NCBI RefSeq assembly: GCF_900167005.1
Contig: NZ_FUXW01000003.1
Span: 77,439 to 141,438, forward strand
Source: Butyricicoccus pullicaecorum DSM 23266
GTDB lineage: Bacteria; Bacillota; Clostridia; Oscillospirales; Butyricicoccaceae
Reading direction: 5' to 3'
DNA length: 64,000 nucleotides
Made by a program: the position numbers and the translations under genes. The notes beneath the pieces are model-generated. The model was not told the origin of the DNA, did not search any database, and saw only the letters and a program-made list of their open reading frames with translations. This document shows positions 2,443 through 43,194 of the stretch, piece after piece. The number at the start of each line of letters is the position of its first letter. The first letter of the stretch is position 1.

Positions 2443-2776
2443 TTGCCGTCTTACCTTTCTTTTGGATATAAAAACAGGGTCTTTGCCTCTTTTGCAAGAG
2501 ACAAAGACCCAAAACTTGGCTCTCTGCGGTACCACTCTGCTTGCCGTCCAAAGTGGGACGACCCCTCGTTGTATACGGCAAGGTGCGCCGTATACAGAGC
2601 CGGTTAACGGTGGCCTGCCGTCTCAAATTACTACCCGAAATTGGGATTCACCGGAGCCGCTCGCGGGCGAGTGTTCGCGCACCTTCCCTCTGCCGCCTTG
2701 CACCGACCGGCGGCTCTCTGAAAGAGATCGGGGGTTACTGTCCCGTTCATTGCGTTTGTCTGTTTGTGTTCCGTTG
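2443..2776 (-). promoter_or_regulatory. T-box leader of the ilv operon
   Basis: The minus-strand leader contains the T-box antiterminator core AGTGGTACCGC (bases 2526-2538 region), which pairs with an uncharged tRNA acceptor end. Upstream is a Stem I-like region with a GACAGTAA (AGTA) motif, and downstream an intrinsic terminator. This is the classic tRNA-sensing antitermination design. In the likely specifier loop the sequence GTGAATCCC offers ATC (isoleucine; plus-strand 2645-2647) as the specifier codon. This assignment is inferred by eye from its position and is not certain. No protein gene is supported here. Confidence 0.9.
2469..2510 (-). terminator. T-box regulated intrinsic terminator upstream of ilvB
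   Basis: On the minus strand GGGTCTTTG and CAAAGACCC form a 9-bp stem, extended by CTCT/AGAG inside, followed by GTTTTTAT. It directly follows the T-box core, so it is the regulated terminator of the leader. Confidence 0.88.
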
Positions 2777-18819: not shown

Positions 18820-19329
18820 ATGAGACATTTGTTGACCCCTCGTTATGTATTTGACGCGGCGACCGACATCACGCCCGCGTTTTTGCTGGAACACGGCATC
18901 CGCGGCTGTCTGATCGATCTGGACGGTACGCTGGTGTCCCGTCATCAGCCCACCGGAAACGATCACCTCGTTCAGTGGCTGGACAGCCTGCGCGCCGCCG
19001 GTATCCGTCCCATGCTGCTGTCCAACAACAATGGCAACCGGGTACGCATTTTCGCCGAGTCCATCGGTGTCGAGTGGCAGGGACGTGCCCTCAAACCCCT
19101 TGCGCGCGGATTCCGTCAGGGTGCGGCACGTTTGGGTCTGCCGTTCTCGCAGATTGCGGTCATTGGCGACCAGATTTACACCGATACGCTGGGCGGCAAC
19201 CGTCTGGGCGCTCTGACCTGTTACGTCGAGACCATCGACCGCGGTGATTTCTGGATTGGCGCACGTTATCACCTGCTGGAAAGCGCCTTCATCCGCCGCG
19301 CCAGAAGGAGAAATGAACATGGAAATTAA
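18820..19329 (+). CDS. yqeG: YqeG family HAD IIIA-type phosphatase
   Basis: A 169-residue haloacid dehalogenase-type hydrolase with motif I DLDGTLV, motif II SNNNGNRV, the motif III Lys in RALKPLARGF, and motif IV GDQIYTDTLGGN. Relatives act as phosphatases; mitochondrial GEP4 dephosphorylates phosphatidylglycerol phosphate, though the bacterial substrate is not settled. Start ATG 18820 follows CAGGAGAAA. The open frame upstream of this lacks support. Its end overlaps the next gene by 11 bases. Confidence 0.9.
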   Translation: MRHLLTPRYVFDAATDITPAFLLEHGIRGCLIDLDGTLVSRHQPTGNDHLVQWLDSLRAAGIRPMLLSNNNGNRVRIFAESIGVEWQGRALKPLARGFRQGAARLGLPFSQIAVIGDQIYTDTLGGNRLGALTCYVETIDRGDFWIGARYHLLESAFIRRARRRNEHGN

Positions 19330-20173
19330 ATTCGGCCCCGCTGGCAACGCGCAGTCGTTCGCCGAGGCAGGGTTTAAAGCCACCGTGGACGCACCGCGCT
19401 GGCTGCACGAAATGGGACTCAATGCCTATGAGTACCAGTGCGGCCGCGGTGTGAATATCGGTGAGGAAACTGCACGCAAAATTGCGGCTCAGGCCGCTCT
19501 GCATGACATTGCCATGTCGCTGCACGCGCCGTACTACATCAATCTGTCCAACCGTGACGAAGAGCGTGTGCAGAAAAACATCGGCTATGTGCTGGCTTCC
19601 TGTCAGGCTGCGACCTGGCTGGGTGCCGACCGCATTGTTGTGCATACCGGCGGCGTGGGCAAACAGTCCCGCACCAAAGCGTTTGAAAATACCAAGGAAA
19701 ATGTACGGGATATTTTAAACGCCGTCGAGCAGGCCGGATATACGACCACTATCTGCCTGGAAACCATGGGCAAACAGAGCGTCATCGGCTCGGCTGAGGA
19801 GATTTTTGAACTGGTCGCACTGGACGACCGTCTGCTCCCCTGTATCGATTTCGGTCACCTCAACGCCCGCACCTGCGGCAAATGCTCGACCGAAGAGGAA
19901 TTTGCACAGGTGCTGGATTTGATGGAAAATACCATCGGAACCGAACGTGCCCGCGTATTCCACAGCCATTTTTCGCATATTGAATACGGCCCCAAGGGTG
20001 AAGTACGACATCTGACATTTGCCGATGAACAGTACGGCCCGGATTTTGCCCCGCTTGCGAAATTGATCGCACAGCGCGGCTGGACGCCCAGATTCATCTG
20101 TGAATCGGCAGGAACGCAGGCGGAAGATGCCAAACAGATGATGGACATATATCTTGCATCGCAGAATAGATAA
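19319..20173 (+). CDS. Endonuclease IV-like TIM-barrel protein
   Basis: A 284-residue member of the AP endonuclease 2 superfamily. Metal-ligand-like motifs of Nfo are present: SLHAPYYINL, IVVHTGGVG, CLETMGKQS, CIDFGHLNAR, FHSHFSHIEYG, and FICESAG. These correspond to the zinc-binding His, Glu and Asp of deoxyribonuclease IV, so it may repair abasic sites. Start ATG 19319 lies 8 bases after AAGGAG. An ATG six bases earlier is too close to that site. It is co-transcribed with yqeG. Confidence 0.85.
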   Translation: MEIKFGPAGNAQSFAEAGFKATVDAPRWLHEMGLNAYEYQCGRGVNIGEETARKIAAQAALHDIAMSLHAPYYINLSNRDEERVQKNIGYVLASCQAATWLGADRIVVHTGGVGKQSRTKAFENTKENVRDILNAVEQAGYTTTICLETMGKQSVIGSAEEIFELVALDDRLLPCIDFGHLNARTCGKCSTEEEFAQVLDLMENTIGTERARVFHSHFSHIEYGPKGEVRHLTFADEQYGPDFAPLAKLIAQRGWTPRFICESAGTQAEDAKQMMDIYLASQNR

Positions 20174-20199
20174 CGAATTCCCGCCCGTAGGGCAAAATG

Positions 20200-20319
20200 A
20201 AGTTTTCGGTCAAGCCTTTTTCAAAAGGCTTGCGGAGTCTTGAGGCAGCGCCTCAAGTCGCCATCCGCTGATGGCGAAACTCCCCTTTTGAAACCCGGTG
20301 TCCGTCCCGGGTTTCAATC
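20200..20319 (+). repeat. Multi-hairpin intergenic element, copy L
   Basis: About 120 bases holding four consecutive perfect hairpins: 20212-20231 (AAGCCTTTT arms), 20239-20257 (CTTGAGGC arms), 20258-20277 (TCGCCATC arms) and 20289-20316 (TGAAACCCGG arms). Copy R at 20411-20521 on the other strand repeats the same backbone (AAGTTTTCG, CCCCTTTTGA) and hairpin order, but with changed arms that still pair. It sits in the 3' region of the endonuclease IV-like gene. Confidence 0.85.
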
Positions 20320-20328
20320 TAAACATAC

Positions 20329-20364
20329 AAAAAAGGAAAGACCAACCAAATGGTTGGTCTTTCC
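20329..20364 (-). terminator. Terminator of the M42 peptidase operon
   Basis: GGAAAGACCAACC and GGTTGGTCTTTCC form a 13-bp stem with loop AAAT, followed by TTTTTT on the minus strand. Confidence 0.85.
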
Positions 20365-20373
20365 AAAGATTTT

Positions 20374-20400
20374 GCGCATCCTGCGGGATGCGCTTTTGTT
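20374..20400 (+). terminator. Terminator of the yqeG/endonuclease IV-like unit
   Basis: GCGCATCC and GGATGCGC form an 8-bp stem followed by TTTTGTT on the plus strand, about 200 bases past the stop codon. Confidence 0.75.
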
Positions 20401-20410
20401 TTGGTTCTGG

Positions 20411-20521
20411 TTGATTCCGGTCATTGACCGGAATCAAAAGGGGATTTCGCCCGTTGCGACGGGCGACTCAGGGCTCTGCCCTGAGAACCCGCGGCCTTTT
20501 GAAAAAGGCCGGCGAAAACTT
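20411..20521 (-). repeat. Multi-hairpin intergenic element, copy R (inverted)
   Basis: Minus-strand mirror of copy L. Its hairpins are 20493-20510 (GGCCTTTT arms), 20467-20485 (CTCAGGGC arms), 20447-20466 (TCGCCCGT arms) and 20411-20437 (TTGATTCCGGTC arms). It begins inside the stop codon of the M42 gene, so it forms that transcript's 3' region. Stem sequences differ from copy L but remain fully complementary. Confidence 0.85.
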
Positions 20522-21522
20522 TATTTAGAGGCAACTGCGGCGAGCAGTTTGGCTGCGTTCTCCACATCGGCTTCACTGCACATCTCACTCGGCGAATGGA
20601 TATAACGGGTCGGAATGGATACCGCGCCAGCCAGCGCACCCATACGGGTCTTTTGCAGCATCGCGGTATCCGTACCGCCAAACTTCAAGATCTCATGCTG
20701 AGTCGGAATATCCAGTGCCTTTGCGGTATCGTCCAGCAGCTTGACAACCTCCGGACTGCAAATGACCGACGAGTCCATGATCTTGACCGCCGGGCCCTTG
20801 CCCATCTCGCACGCCATCGGATATTTCTGTTCGGGCAGATCACCGGTATCGGTCACATCGACCGCGATTGCAAGATCGGGCTGAATCGCATAGGCTGCCG
20901 GGCCTGCACCACGCAGGCCGACTTCTTCCTGTGCGGTAAAGACAAAATACACGTCGCTCGGCACGGTCTCGGGCAGCTGCTCCATTGCCAGAAGCAGCGT
21001 TACGCAGCCGATGCGGTTGTCCAGATACGGACCGCACAGCACGCCGTTCTGAGTGAAGGGCTGCGCCTCAAAGATGGCAAAATCACCCACGCGCACCATG
21101 CGCTCGGCGTCTTCCTTATCCTTCACACCGATATCAATAAACAGATTGCCCTGGGTCATCTCTCTCCATGGGGTCTTTTCCTCGACCGAGATCACACCGC
21201 GTGTGCCGTTTGCAAAGCGAATCTGAATGTTGATCAGATCCGACCACGACAGGCCGCCGACCTGCGAAAAGCGGATAAACCCCTTCTCGTCGATGAACGT
21301 CGCAACCACACCGATCGAGTCCATGTGCGCGGCAAACATGATTTTTTTCTTGTCTTCCGCCGTGCCCTTCTTGCGGCAGATCAGATTGCCCAGTGCGTCG
21401 GTCTGGATATCGTCGCACAAATCGCCTGCCATCGCGCCGATGACCTCGCGCACATCGTCTTCCCGTCCGGACGGGCCGAACGCGCCGCCGACCTGCTTAA
21501 AATATTCAAAAACCTTAGACAT
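20521..21522 (-). CDS. M42 family metallopeptidase, paralogue 1
   Basis: Cytosolic dimetal aminopeptidase of the M42 (glutamyl aminopeptidase/TET) family. Length is 333 residues. Ligands are visible in AAHMDSIGVVA, GPYLDNRIGCV, the catalytic pair AQEEVGLRGA, VDVTDTGD, and the C-terminal TRYIHSPSE. Its start overlaps the end of paralogue 2 by 8 bases. It is the last gene of a three-gene tandem operon and runs directly into the hairpin element. Confidence 0.93.
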   Translation of the reverse strand: MSKVFEYFKQVGGAFGPSGREDDVREVIGAMAGDLCDDIQTDALGNLICRKKGTAEDKKKIMFAAHMDSIGVVATFIDEKGFIRFSQVGGLSWSDLINIQIRFANGTRGVISVEEKTPWREMTQGNLFIDIGVKDKEDAERMVRVGDFAIFEAQPFTQNGVLCGPYLDNRIGCVTLLLAMEQLPETVPSDVYFVFTAQEEVGLRGAGPAAYAIQPDLAIAVDVTDTGDLPEQKYPMACEMGKGPAVKIMDSSVICSPEVVKLLDDTAKALDIPTQHEILKFGGTDTAMLQKTRMGALAGAVSIPTRYIHSPSEMCSEADVENAAKLLAAVASK

Positions 21523-22576
21523 CCTGGTCTCCTCCGATTTCCTCTAAAAATGCCTTTGCTGCGCGGTAGACCGCGATGATATCGCTCTCTGCTGCAACCG
21601 ACGAGGGCGAATGAATATAGCGCAGCGGTGCCGCCACGCCCACGGTGCGCACACCCTGCACGCTCTTATGGATGCGTCCGGCATCCGTGCCGCCTGCGAC
21701 CATGTGCTTAGTCTGCCATGCGATACCGCGTGCCTCACAGACATCGCGCATCATCTCGAACAGCTCTGCGTCGTAGATCGTACCGCGATCCATGAACGGC
21801 AGCACCGCACCCTTGCGCAGTGCGCAGACCTGCTTGTGCGGCGGTACATCGGCCAGATCAGCCGCCGTCGTGCCCTCAACGACCAGGCAAAACGCCGGCT
21901 GGATGGCAAATGCAGTCGTAGCTGCACCGCGCAGGCCGACTTCCTCCTGCACGTGGAAGCAGAACCAGGTATCGACCGCAGGCTGTTCGCGCATGAGCAG
22001 CAGCAGAACCGCGCAGCCCAGACGGTCATCGAGCGCCTTGGCCTTGAGCATGCCGTCGCCAAACGAGACGATCTCAGGTGCAAACGTGCCGCAATCGCCC
22101 AGCGACAGCTTGGCCTCGGCCTGCTTTTTGCTCGTGCAGCCGATATCGATATACAGATCACGGGTTTTGGGTGCGTGCTGACGCTCGCTGGCCGTGGTCA
22201 GGTGCACGGCCTTGATGCCGATAATACCCTCAACCGTGTCGCCCTCCTCGGTGCGGAACTGGATGCGTCGTCCGATGACCACACGCGGGTCGACACCGCC
22301 GACAAAGCCAAACTTGACCATGCCGTCCTCGGTGAACGACTTGACAATCACACCGACCTCGTCCATGTGCGCGCACAGCATGATCGGCTGCTCGGTCAGA
22401 TTACGTCCCTTGCGGAACACCATGAGGTTGCCCATCGGGTCGGTCTCAATGCGGTCAGCATAAGGCATCGCCGCTTGCAGAATATACTCGCGCACTTCAT
22501 CTTCCCAGCCCGACGGGCCGAATTTTGCACACAGGGTGCGCGTCAATGTCAGAAGTTCTTCATATTCCCGCTCCAT
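21515..22576 (-). CDS. M42 family metallopeptidase, paralogue 2
   Basis: A 353-residue M42 peptidase with CAHMDEVGVIV, KALDDRLGCA, VQEEVGLRGA, VVEGTTAADL (Glu replaces the usual Asp of the fourth ligand) and LRYIHSPSS. It clearly differs from its two neighbours, so the tandem is an old duplication rather than a recent copy. The start codon overlaps the stop of paralogue 3 (TAATG). Confidence 0.93.
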   Translation of the reverse strand: MEREYEELLTLTRTLCAKFGPSGWEDEVREYILQAAMPYADRIETDPMGNLMVFRKGRNLTEQPIMLCAHMDEVGVIVKSFTEDGMVKFGFVGGVDPRVVIGRRIQFRTEEGDTVEGIIGIKAVHLTTASERQHAPKTRDLYIDIGCTSKKQAEAKLSLGDCGTFAPEIVSFGDGMLKAKALDDRLGCAVLLLLMREQPAVDTWFCFHVQEEVGLRGAATTAFAIQPAFCLVVEGTTAADLADVPPHKQVCALRKGAVLPFMDRGTIYDAELFEMMRDVCEARGIAWQTKHMVAGGTDAGRIHKSVQGVRTVGVAAPLRYIHSPSSVAAESDIIAVYRAAKAFLEEIGGDQDV

Positions 22577-23643
22577 TACAGGCGCACCTCCCCGTCAAAC
22601 TGGCGTAAAAAGTGGTACATCAAATCACCGACCGACTCGGCATCGGACAGCTTGATGGTCTCGATGGGCGTGTGCATATAGCGCAGCGGGATGGACAGGA
22701 TGGCCTGCGCGGTACCCGTGCCGATAATCTGCATCTCCCAGGCATTCGTGCCCGTATTACCCTCCATGACCTCGATCTGATAATCCATGTCCTCAGCCTT
22801 TGCCGTGCGGATGAGCGCACGGGTCAGCGCGCGGTTCATGTTCGGGCCCATGCCGATCATCACACCGCCGCCGTACTCAAACTGATCGGATGCGTCCGGG
22901 GTCTTGGCGTGGCTCACATCGACCGCGATGGCGTAATCCGGTCGGATGTGGAAGGTGCCAAGCGTCGCACCCAGCGAAGTAACCTCCTCCTGTACCGACA
23001 GCAGGACAGCAACATCGACCGCCAGGTCAACCTTGCGCAGCTTTTGCAGGGCGTATGCGATGGCAGCCGCGCCTGCGCGGTCGTCCAAGCTGGGGCCAGT
23101 GATGGAATCCTTGGACAGCTTGGGCATGTGTGCCTTGTCTGCTGGGAACCAGATGGGCGTACCAACCGGAATTCTGGACTTTGCGTCCAGCAAACCGGTA
23201 TCGATGACCATTTCGTGAATGGGGACGGCCTTGTCCGACTCGTTGGCCGCCAGCAGGTGCGGCGGCTTGCAGGCAACAATACCGTACAGTTCCCCCTCCG
23301 GTGCGCCGATCGTAACCTCTGCGCCCAGCAGCATACGCGGGTCGACACCGCCGACCGACTGAAATCTCAAAAATCCATCGTCGAGCGTCTCGGTGACAAC
23401 AAAGCCGATCTGGTCGAGGTGCGCATCCAGCAAGACGGTCTTTGCGTCCGGTTTTCCCGAGCGGATACGACCGATGACGTTGCCAAAGCGGTCGACCTCG
23501 ATCTCGTCGCACAGCGGTGCGAACAGCTCGCGCACGCGCTCGGACTGCGCACGTTCAAAGCCGCAGACCATCGGAATGGCGGTCAGCTGCTCGATCCAGG
23601 TGCGCATCGATGCCTCAGGCATCGCTTGTTCTATCTCGTGCAA
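22576..23643 (-). CDS. M42 family metallopeptidase, paralogue 3
   Basis: A 355-residue M42 peptidase and first gene of the tandem. Ligand motifs are LDAHLDQIGFVV, PSLDDRAGAAA, VQEEVTSLGA, VDVSHAKTPD and LRYMHTPIE. The likely start is a TTG at 23643, 8 bases after AAAGGAG. The first in-frame ATG is eight codons later and has no better ribosome binding site. It is driven by a sigma-A promoter that overlaps the divergent promoter of the pseudouridine synthase gene. Confidence 0.9.
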   Translation of the reverse strand: MHEIEQAMPEASMRTWIEQLTAIPMVCGFERAQSERVRELFAPLCDEIEVDRFGNVIGRIRSGKPDAKTVLLDAHLDQIGFVVTETLDDGFLRFQSVGGVDPRMLLGAEVTIGAPEGELYGIVACKPPHLLAANESDKAVPIHEMVIDTGLLDAKSRIPVGTPIWFPADKAHMPKLSKDSITGPSLDDRAGAAAIAYALQKLRKVDLAVDVAVLLSVQEEVTSLGATLGTFHIRPDYAIAVDVSHAKTPDASDQFEYGGGVMIGMGPNMNRALTRALIRTAKAEDMDYQIEVMEGNTGTNAWEMQIIGTGTAQAILSIPLRYMHTPIETIKLSDAESVGDLMYHFLRQFDGEVRL

Positions 23644-42789: not shown

Positions 42790-42807
42790 GGGGGTGTAAG
42801 TTTTGGT

Positions 42808-42931
42808 GGATTCCCGGGGCGAACACCGGGAATCCATAAGAAATTCCGGACTCTGCGGAGTCCGGCCAGCCTACGCGGCTGGACTGCGCCAGGGAACTCG
42901 TCCCCTGGACCCCGATTATCGCCTGCGGGCG
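42808..42931 (-). repeat. Multi-hairpin intergenic array downstream of rqcP
   Basis: Five successive hairpins: 42808-42835 (GGATTCCCGG arms), 42846-42865 (CCGGACTC arms), 42866-42882 (CCAGCC arms), 42889-42908 (CCAGGG arms) and 42920-42931 (CGCC arms). Like the elements at 20200-20521 it lies between a stop codon and a terminator, but its order and arm sequences differ, suggesting a related but distinct subfamily. Confidence 0.75.
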
Positions 42932-42951: not shown

Positions 42952-43194
42952 TTAAAGAATCTCGCGGTACAGGGTTGCCGCGTCGTCCTTACGGACGTGT
43001 TCGGCAACGTCGAGCACCTCAACCTTCATGGTACGCTGACCGAAGGCGATCTCGATGACGTCCCCGACCTTGACCTGATACGAGGCCTTGGCCTGACGGC
43101 CATTGACCACGATGCGCTCACCGTCACAGGCATCATTTGCCACGGTGCGGCGCTTAATCAGGCGAGAAACCTTTAAAAATTTGTCTAAACGCAT
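42952..43194 (-). CDS. rqcP: S4-domain protein RqcP (YabO)
   Basis: An 80-residue protein that is essentially one S4 RNA-binding domain (MRLDKFLKVSRLIKRRTVAN; RIVVNGRQAKASYQVKVGD). YabO/RqcP stabilises peptidyl-tRNA during RqcH-driven alanine tailing in ribosome quality control. Its start overlaps the end of the HU gene by 10 bases. Confidence 0.92.
   Translation of the reverse strand: MRLDKFLKVSRLIKRRTVANDACDGERIVVNGRQAKASYQVKVGDVIEIAFGQRTMKVEVLDVAEHVRKDDAATLYREIL

Follow-up and report, generated by a model that had tools for sequence, protein, structure and literature searches.

A mirrored pair of four-hairpin arms in Butyricicoccus pullicaecorum as a probable member of a modular gene-end repeat family around predicted crossing terminators

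We analyzed a 64,000-nucleotide stretch of the Butyricicoccus pullicaecorum DSM 23266 genome, referred to here as the window, which contains a junction between two convergent genes. The gene at 19286-20173 (+) encodes an AP_endonuc_2/xylose-isomerase-like TIM barrel protein (Pfam PF01261, E 4e-31), and the gene at 20521-21522 (-) encodes a member of the M42 glutamyl aminopeptidase family (Pfam PF05343, E 2.7e-80). Between them, two class A arms of ~115 nt, each made of four hairpins, face each other at 20200-20317 (+) and 20411-20522 (-), matching a covariance model of the family with 125 and 112 bits, respectively. The first-pass annotation of this DNA had described two such elements in opposite orientation, starting at or near stop codons, and the arms were confirmed at these positions. 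The leader of the + arm, of the CCCGCCCGTAGGGC type, lies at 20179-20199 (+) and starts 5 bases past the stop codon at 20171-20173, and it is followed on the same strand by the hairpins H1 (CAAGCC type, 20211-20232), H2 (CTTGAGGC type, 20239-20257), H3 (20258-20277) and H4 (AAACCCGG type, 20288-20317). On the opposite strand, the AAAG of the - arm leader overlaps the TAA of the M42 peptidase gene at 20521, and the hairpins are H1 (CGGCC type, 20511-20492), H2 (CTCAGGGC type, 20485-20467), H3 (20466-20447) and H4 (ATTCCGG type, 20437-20411).

The folds of the two arms were compared with those of 200 dinucleotide shuffles each. The + arm gave z = -7.28 and the - arm z = -8.26, and 0/200 shuffles folded equally well in either case. 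The main stems of both arms pair perfectly throughout, in agreement with the earlier observation that the arms differ and still pair. Two segments of the common backbone that had been taken as single-stranded, AGTCGCC and CCCCTTTTGA, are both partly contained in stems (H3, H4). A riboswitch or other known RNA was rejected at the locus, where no Rfam 15 family exceeded the gathering threshold and matches were sub-threshold only.

Two central hairpins separate the arms. The GACC-type hairpin (20335-20364, -) resembles an intrinsic terminator for the - strand, with a T-run at 20334-20329, and the GCGC-type hairpin (20374-20393, +) resembles one for the + strand and is followed by TTTTGTTTT. One terminator per strand had been proposed between the arms, and a U-tract hairpin was indeed found on each strand, but the layout had to be corrected, as the predicted terminators cross: the U-tract hairpin of each strand is the one more distant from its own arm. 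Since each U-tract follows the farther hairpin, the predicted 3' ends of the two strands overlap by ~75 nt at this locus. Where convergent genes are separated by bidirectional or overlapping intrinsic terminators, two U-tract hairpins, one for each strand, produce 3' ends that overlap, and the locus shares with such terminators a GC-rich hairpin and a U-tract on each strand. It differs from ordinary bidirectional terminators in the four extra hairpins on each side, which are absent at plain orthologous junctions. A-rich/T-rich flanks were found in 52 pairs of the host genome.

A blastn search of the host genome returned ~50 near copies, and a covariance model built from 60 copies of this genome matched at least 150 places with at least 99 bits (E <= 1.2e-22), establishing that further copies exist, as had been predicted. 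Among the matches listed, all 34 neighbors less than 500 bp apart were in '+-' order, and their gaps were mostly 91-95 or 110-114 bp. Arms were parsed, and their gene context read, from the sequence stretches around copies; regular expressions served to assign alleles and junction types, and a simple codon-score finder to call genes. The 185 arms parsed in this way fall into class A (158, plus 4 that carry inserts) and two further classes (23 together), in which H3, H4 and the center are shared with class A and the 5' hairpins are different; 124 of the 185 belong to 62 mirrored pairs. The usual unit is ~345 bp long and runs leader-H1-H2-H3-H4, two to three central hairpins, and H4'-H3'-H2'-H1'-leader', with a gap between the mirrored arms that is mostly fixed at 87-94 or 109-114 bp. 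The window holds a third copy, a single class B arm at 42807-42919 (-) (covariance model 52 bits, E 5.7e-11), which is located 3' of the gene 42952-43194 (-) and upstream of a codirectional gene, and is followed by a terminator-like hairpin of its own.

The arms are assembled from a limited set of interchangeable hairpins. H1 occurs as four alleles (CAAGCC, CAAACC, CAGCC and CGGCC), H2 as CTTGAGGC or CTCAGGGC with a rare third allele, H3 as many alleles and H4 as five, and at least two leader alleles exist, other copies having CCCGCCCGCAGGCG or CACCGCACCC. Among the 158 arms of class A, 118 different H1-H2-H3-H4 combinations occur, and most modules of an arm are no more than weakly or moderately associated, so that hairpin alleles assort almost freely within the arm. 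The unit as a whole is polar, with the GACC-type central hairpin next to one arm and the GCGC-type hairpin next to the other in 49/62 pairs, and the type of H4 tracks the side: AAACCCGG or ATTCCCGG by the GACC hairpin, ATTTTCGC or ATTCCGG by the GCGC hairpin. Some arms carry a nested insert of ~52 nt (CCCGTAGGTCACTATCC...CGCGCTGTGCGCG...ATGAGTG) in the loop of H3, a central hairpin or the leader hairpin; it was seen in 10 places (including L036, L070, L109, L027, L014 and L026) and appears to be a second small repeat inserting into hairpin loops. A longer common insert (GGCCCCTGTGGGGC plus TCGGCCA hairpins) splits H1 from H2 at L064:1230-1410, L083:1705-1888 and L026:5084-5269, and is apparently another repeat family.

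The proposed compensatory base changes were assessed among the copies of the host genome and in a comparison across families. Among the host copies, 97.9% of cells pair, with a covariation of 0.430 compared to 0.166 for shuffled and at most 0.111 for slid controls. In a cross-family alignment of 23 sequences, 97.8% pair, with a covariation of 0.539 compared to 0.202 for shuffled and at most 0.145 for slid controls, and both sides had changed in 17/26 pairs. Covariation is far above both controls at either scale. The first-pass annotation had also taken it as the mark of a conserved RNA structure, and this part is to be qualified: within the genome, the covariation is between a few discrete hairpin alleles, for which a palindrome or repeat process at the DNA level is possible. 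G-U pairs account for 5 of ~960 cells of H2 and H3 within the genome, and because of their near-absence these data are compatible with RNA function and with palindrome maintenance at the DNA level alike. A multi-branch stem (GGAG/CTCC) enclosing H2 and H3 was considered and dropped on account of weak covariation. Repeats of this kind resemble conserved RNAs in covariation screens, which calls for caution in reading such screens.

Facing arms avoid carrying the same hairpins. The same H1 allele was found in facing arms in 1/42 pairs (10.9 expected from shuffles), the same H2 allele in 18/42 (24.4 expected), the same H3 allele in 1/50 (5.9 expected) and the same H4 allele in 2/62 (14.2 expected). 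A regional effect was rejected as the source of this difference, since the closest arms other than partners had alleles in common as often as is usual: sharing of H1 was 0.02 for partners and 0.31 for nearest non-partners, and sharing of H4 was 0.03 and 0.28, respectively. Nor is it purely an effect of polarity. When random pairing was stratified by side (GACC-side with GCGC-side arms), avoidance persisted for H1 (1/31 shared, 8.8 expected), H2 (10/31 shared, 17.1 expected) and H3 (0/40 shared, 5.2 expected); the partner difference in H4 and H5 is largely accounted for by the polarity of the unit. A palindromic hairpin is, apart from its loop, equal to its own reverse complement, so that identical facing hairpins would be repeated in direct and in inverted orientation simultaneously. 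The difference between partners would be explained if such identical copies tended to be deleted or to mispair.

The position of the arms relative to genes was examined with respect to the claim that each copy would lie in the 3' region of its own mRNA. A same-strand gene lies upstream in 139/176 arms with a called upstream neighbor, the distance from stop codon to H1 is mostly 15-30 nt, and 1/185 arms falls within a called gene; the genes ahead of the arms are unrelated to one another. Both flanking genes were called for 57 pairs, of which 35 lie at convergent, 20 at codirectional and 2 at divergent junctions, compared to 6 convergent, 53 codirectional and 6 divergent among 65 junctions of the window. 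Convergent junctions are therefore strongly preferred by the pairs. In the 20 codirectional and 2 divergent pairs one or both arms are antisense, and about one third of pairs have an arm that precedes a gene or is antisense to it. The claim is thus supported by the 139 arms after a same-strand stop codon and not by the 22/57 non-convergent pairs, which also weaken a strict model of one 3' element for each gene.

Copies are very unevenly distributed over the contigs of the host genome (chi2 277, 16 df). The contig carrying dnaA (C24) is the densest among contigs longer than 25 kb, with RecF-like, rsmG and mnmE genes adjoining copies, which suggests that copies are enriched near the replication origin. 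For placing contigs relative to the origin, a 16S search was performed, and SSU rRNA had no match in the draft assembly. Copy density differs ~50-fold between host contigs (G000 C24, C32, C7 and C14 vs. C33 and C17), and several contig ends of the assembly lie close to copies.

Outside the host, the covariance model detected 8 copies in one species of the genus, 11 in another, 17 in a third and 0 in a further two. This contrast in copy number may be inflated, because the two relatives compared junction by junction (G002 and G003) are MAGs and MAGs lose repeats. A wider H1-H3 model matched in 36/247 genomes of the order, representing 25 genera and including Oscillospiraceae and Ruminococcus MAGs, and in none of the genomes outside the order among 348 sampled from the phylum. 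In sequences from other families of the order (L148-L167), the H1-H3 core is followed by different common hairpins (e.g., CAGTCCGGTGGACTG and GGGGAACCCTCGCCGGGGGTTCCCC), and the 3' modules therefore vary by lineage. The junction of the window could be followed in two relatives. In Ca. B. avicola (G002), the nearer of the two, the M42-side arm is kept, although a C-G pair of H3 has become T-A by compensatory change, and the opposite arm has different 5' hairpins, i.e., it has been partly replaced; in an uncultured Butyricicoccus (G003), the junction holds a plain terminator and no element. Of the 28 arms mapped to G003 junctions, the element is absent at 22 and present at 6. Both the number and the positions of copies thus vary strongly among congeneric species, as expected of an interspersed repeat. 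At three filled/empty junctions aligned with a rather diverged relative, the intergenic sequence has been replaced, and no clear target duplication is visible. Simple insertion would not appear to explain such junctions, since the arms closely abut stop codons and the old terminator is wholly gone at the resolved empty sites.

Taken together, the evidence points to a structured gene-end or terminator repeat family rather than a single special RNA. The interpretation that we favor, with a probability of about 0.6, is that the locus belongs to a family of modular interspersed repeats in the order containing Butyricicoccus as well as gut Clostridia of the Oscillospiraceae/Ruminococcus type, and that its transcripts would carry a chain of 3' hairpins around bidirectional terminators that cross. 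On transcription, the end of each mRNA would be a four-hairpin chain, after which both central hairpins would be crossed before termination, and the convergent transcripts would overlap over the predicted ~75 nt. The unit would terminate transcription in both directions and give a 3' end resistant to exonucleases, which neighboring genes would tolerate or profit from; we infer these terminator and 3'-end roles from sequence. Recombination or gene conversion between copies is the most likely route by which they would spread and swap modules.

An unlikely alternative is that the mirrored pair is a MITE, i.e., a non-autonomous DNA transposon with the leaders and H1 as terminal inverted repeats and a transposase encoded elsewhere. 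The fixed size of the unit with its inverted ends, the pairs between non-convergent genes and the many sites that are empty in a relative are as a MITE would predict. However, the outer ends are not conserved, as the leader has at least two alleles and H1 has four, and two further arm classes exist; no clean insertion or target duplication is visible at the three junctions aligned to the rather diverged, element-free relative; and a transposase search covering Y1_Tnp found no Y1_Tnp/RAYT-type transposase in the genome. A RAYT-driven REP was rejected on the same search, in which PF01797 (Y1_Tnp) had no match in the host genome and the controls were positive. A phage origin was likewise rejected, as the locus has no blastn match in a phage collection and only 2 matching stretches were found in viral contigs.

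It is also unlikely that the H1-H2-H3 core is a dedicated regulatory RNA domain with a protein partner or a role in trans, of which the repeats would be the functional copies. Such a domain would be consistent with the backbone of the core and its covariation, kept across families of one order, and with arms that are mostly in sense after stop codons, but it is at odds with the unrelated genes ahead of the arms, with a copy number ranging from none to more than 150 within one genus, and with arms that are equivalent except that class B or C hairpins have taken the place of the entire core. The strong sense-side bias right after stop codons and the central U-tract terminators, which point to transcription, argue in turn against a rather improbable reading in which the arms are DNA-level palindromes, serving as cruciform or protein-binding sites in chromosome organization with stems kept by template-switch correction of quasi-palindromes; the scarcity of G-U pairs in H2 and H3 and the uneven distribution of copies, densest on the dnaA contig, speak for it. 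Of similarly low probability is the proposal that the mirrored units are a genome-wide near-origin system, diversified by active module exchange, in which the non-identical arms would be transcription-unit insulators or chromosome-organizing sites.

Repeats dispersed at the ends of genes are a familiar feature of Proteobacteria and streptococci. The BIME/REP elements of E. coli and other bacteria are high-copy palindromes in opposite orientation, enriched downstream of genes and between convergent genes, and have been proposed to influence termination and mRNA stability (PMC3733652), and the family described here resembles them in its opposite-orientation pairs downstream of genes. A REP, however, is a single 20-40 bp palindrome with a GTAG or CGTC tag, often linked to a RAYT (PMC3733652), whereas the arms here are ~115 nt long with four different hairpins, have no Y1_Tnp gene, and differ between partners by rule. 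The BOX elements of Streptococcus pneumoniae are modular, interspersed and over-represented between convergent genes, with a predicted stem-loop RNA, and like the present family they are without an identified mobilizing enzyme (PMC3049150). BOX is described as boxA-(boxB)n-boxC, with one module in variable number (PMC3049150), which sets it apart from the present units, where the order of positions is fixed, every position has several alleles and the arms are mirrored around terminators, in a host of another class of bacteria. The Efa and Ype stem-loop repeats are larger than REPs, lie near the 3' ends of coding sequences and have been suggested to change mRNA stability; they come from other hosts, and the accessible part of that report does not describe modular alleles or a mirrored-pair rule (PMC1590033). 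The accessible part of a survey of candidate structured RNAs from the human microbiome lists 250 palindromic candidates, most of them predicted terminators (PMC8040213), and members of the present family could be among them. The best reading is that the family behaves like BIME or BOX, yet belongs to neither. In the open-access literature, we found no named repeat of this kind in butyrate-producing gut Clostridia; a paywalled description is possible.

The family offers a natural experiment, in which discrete hairpin modules are combined nearly freely under a measurable rule that facing partners differ. It allows tests of the spread, module exchange and stability of palindromic repeats, as well as of any effect of a 3' hairpin chain on termination or mRNA lifetime.

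Two further features of the window were noted. The M42 peptidase gene at the locus is one of three M42-like genes in a row (20521-23643, -), which are distantly related, with ~33-38% mutual identity; three such matches are likewise adjacent to one another in further species of the genus. A T-box leader at 2494-2759 (-), scoring 104.6 bits, is the sole Rfam match in the window.
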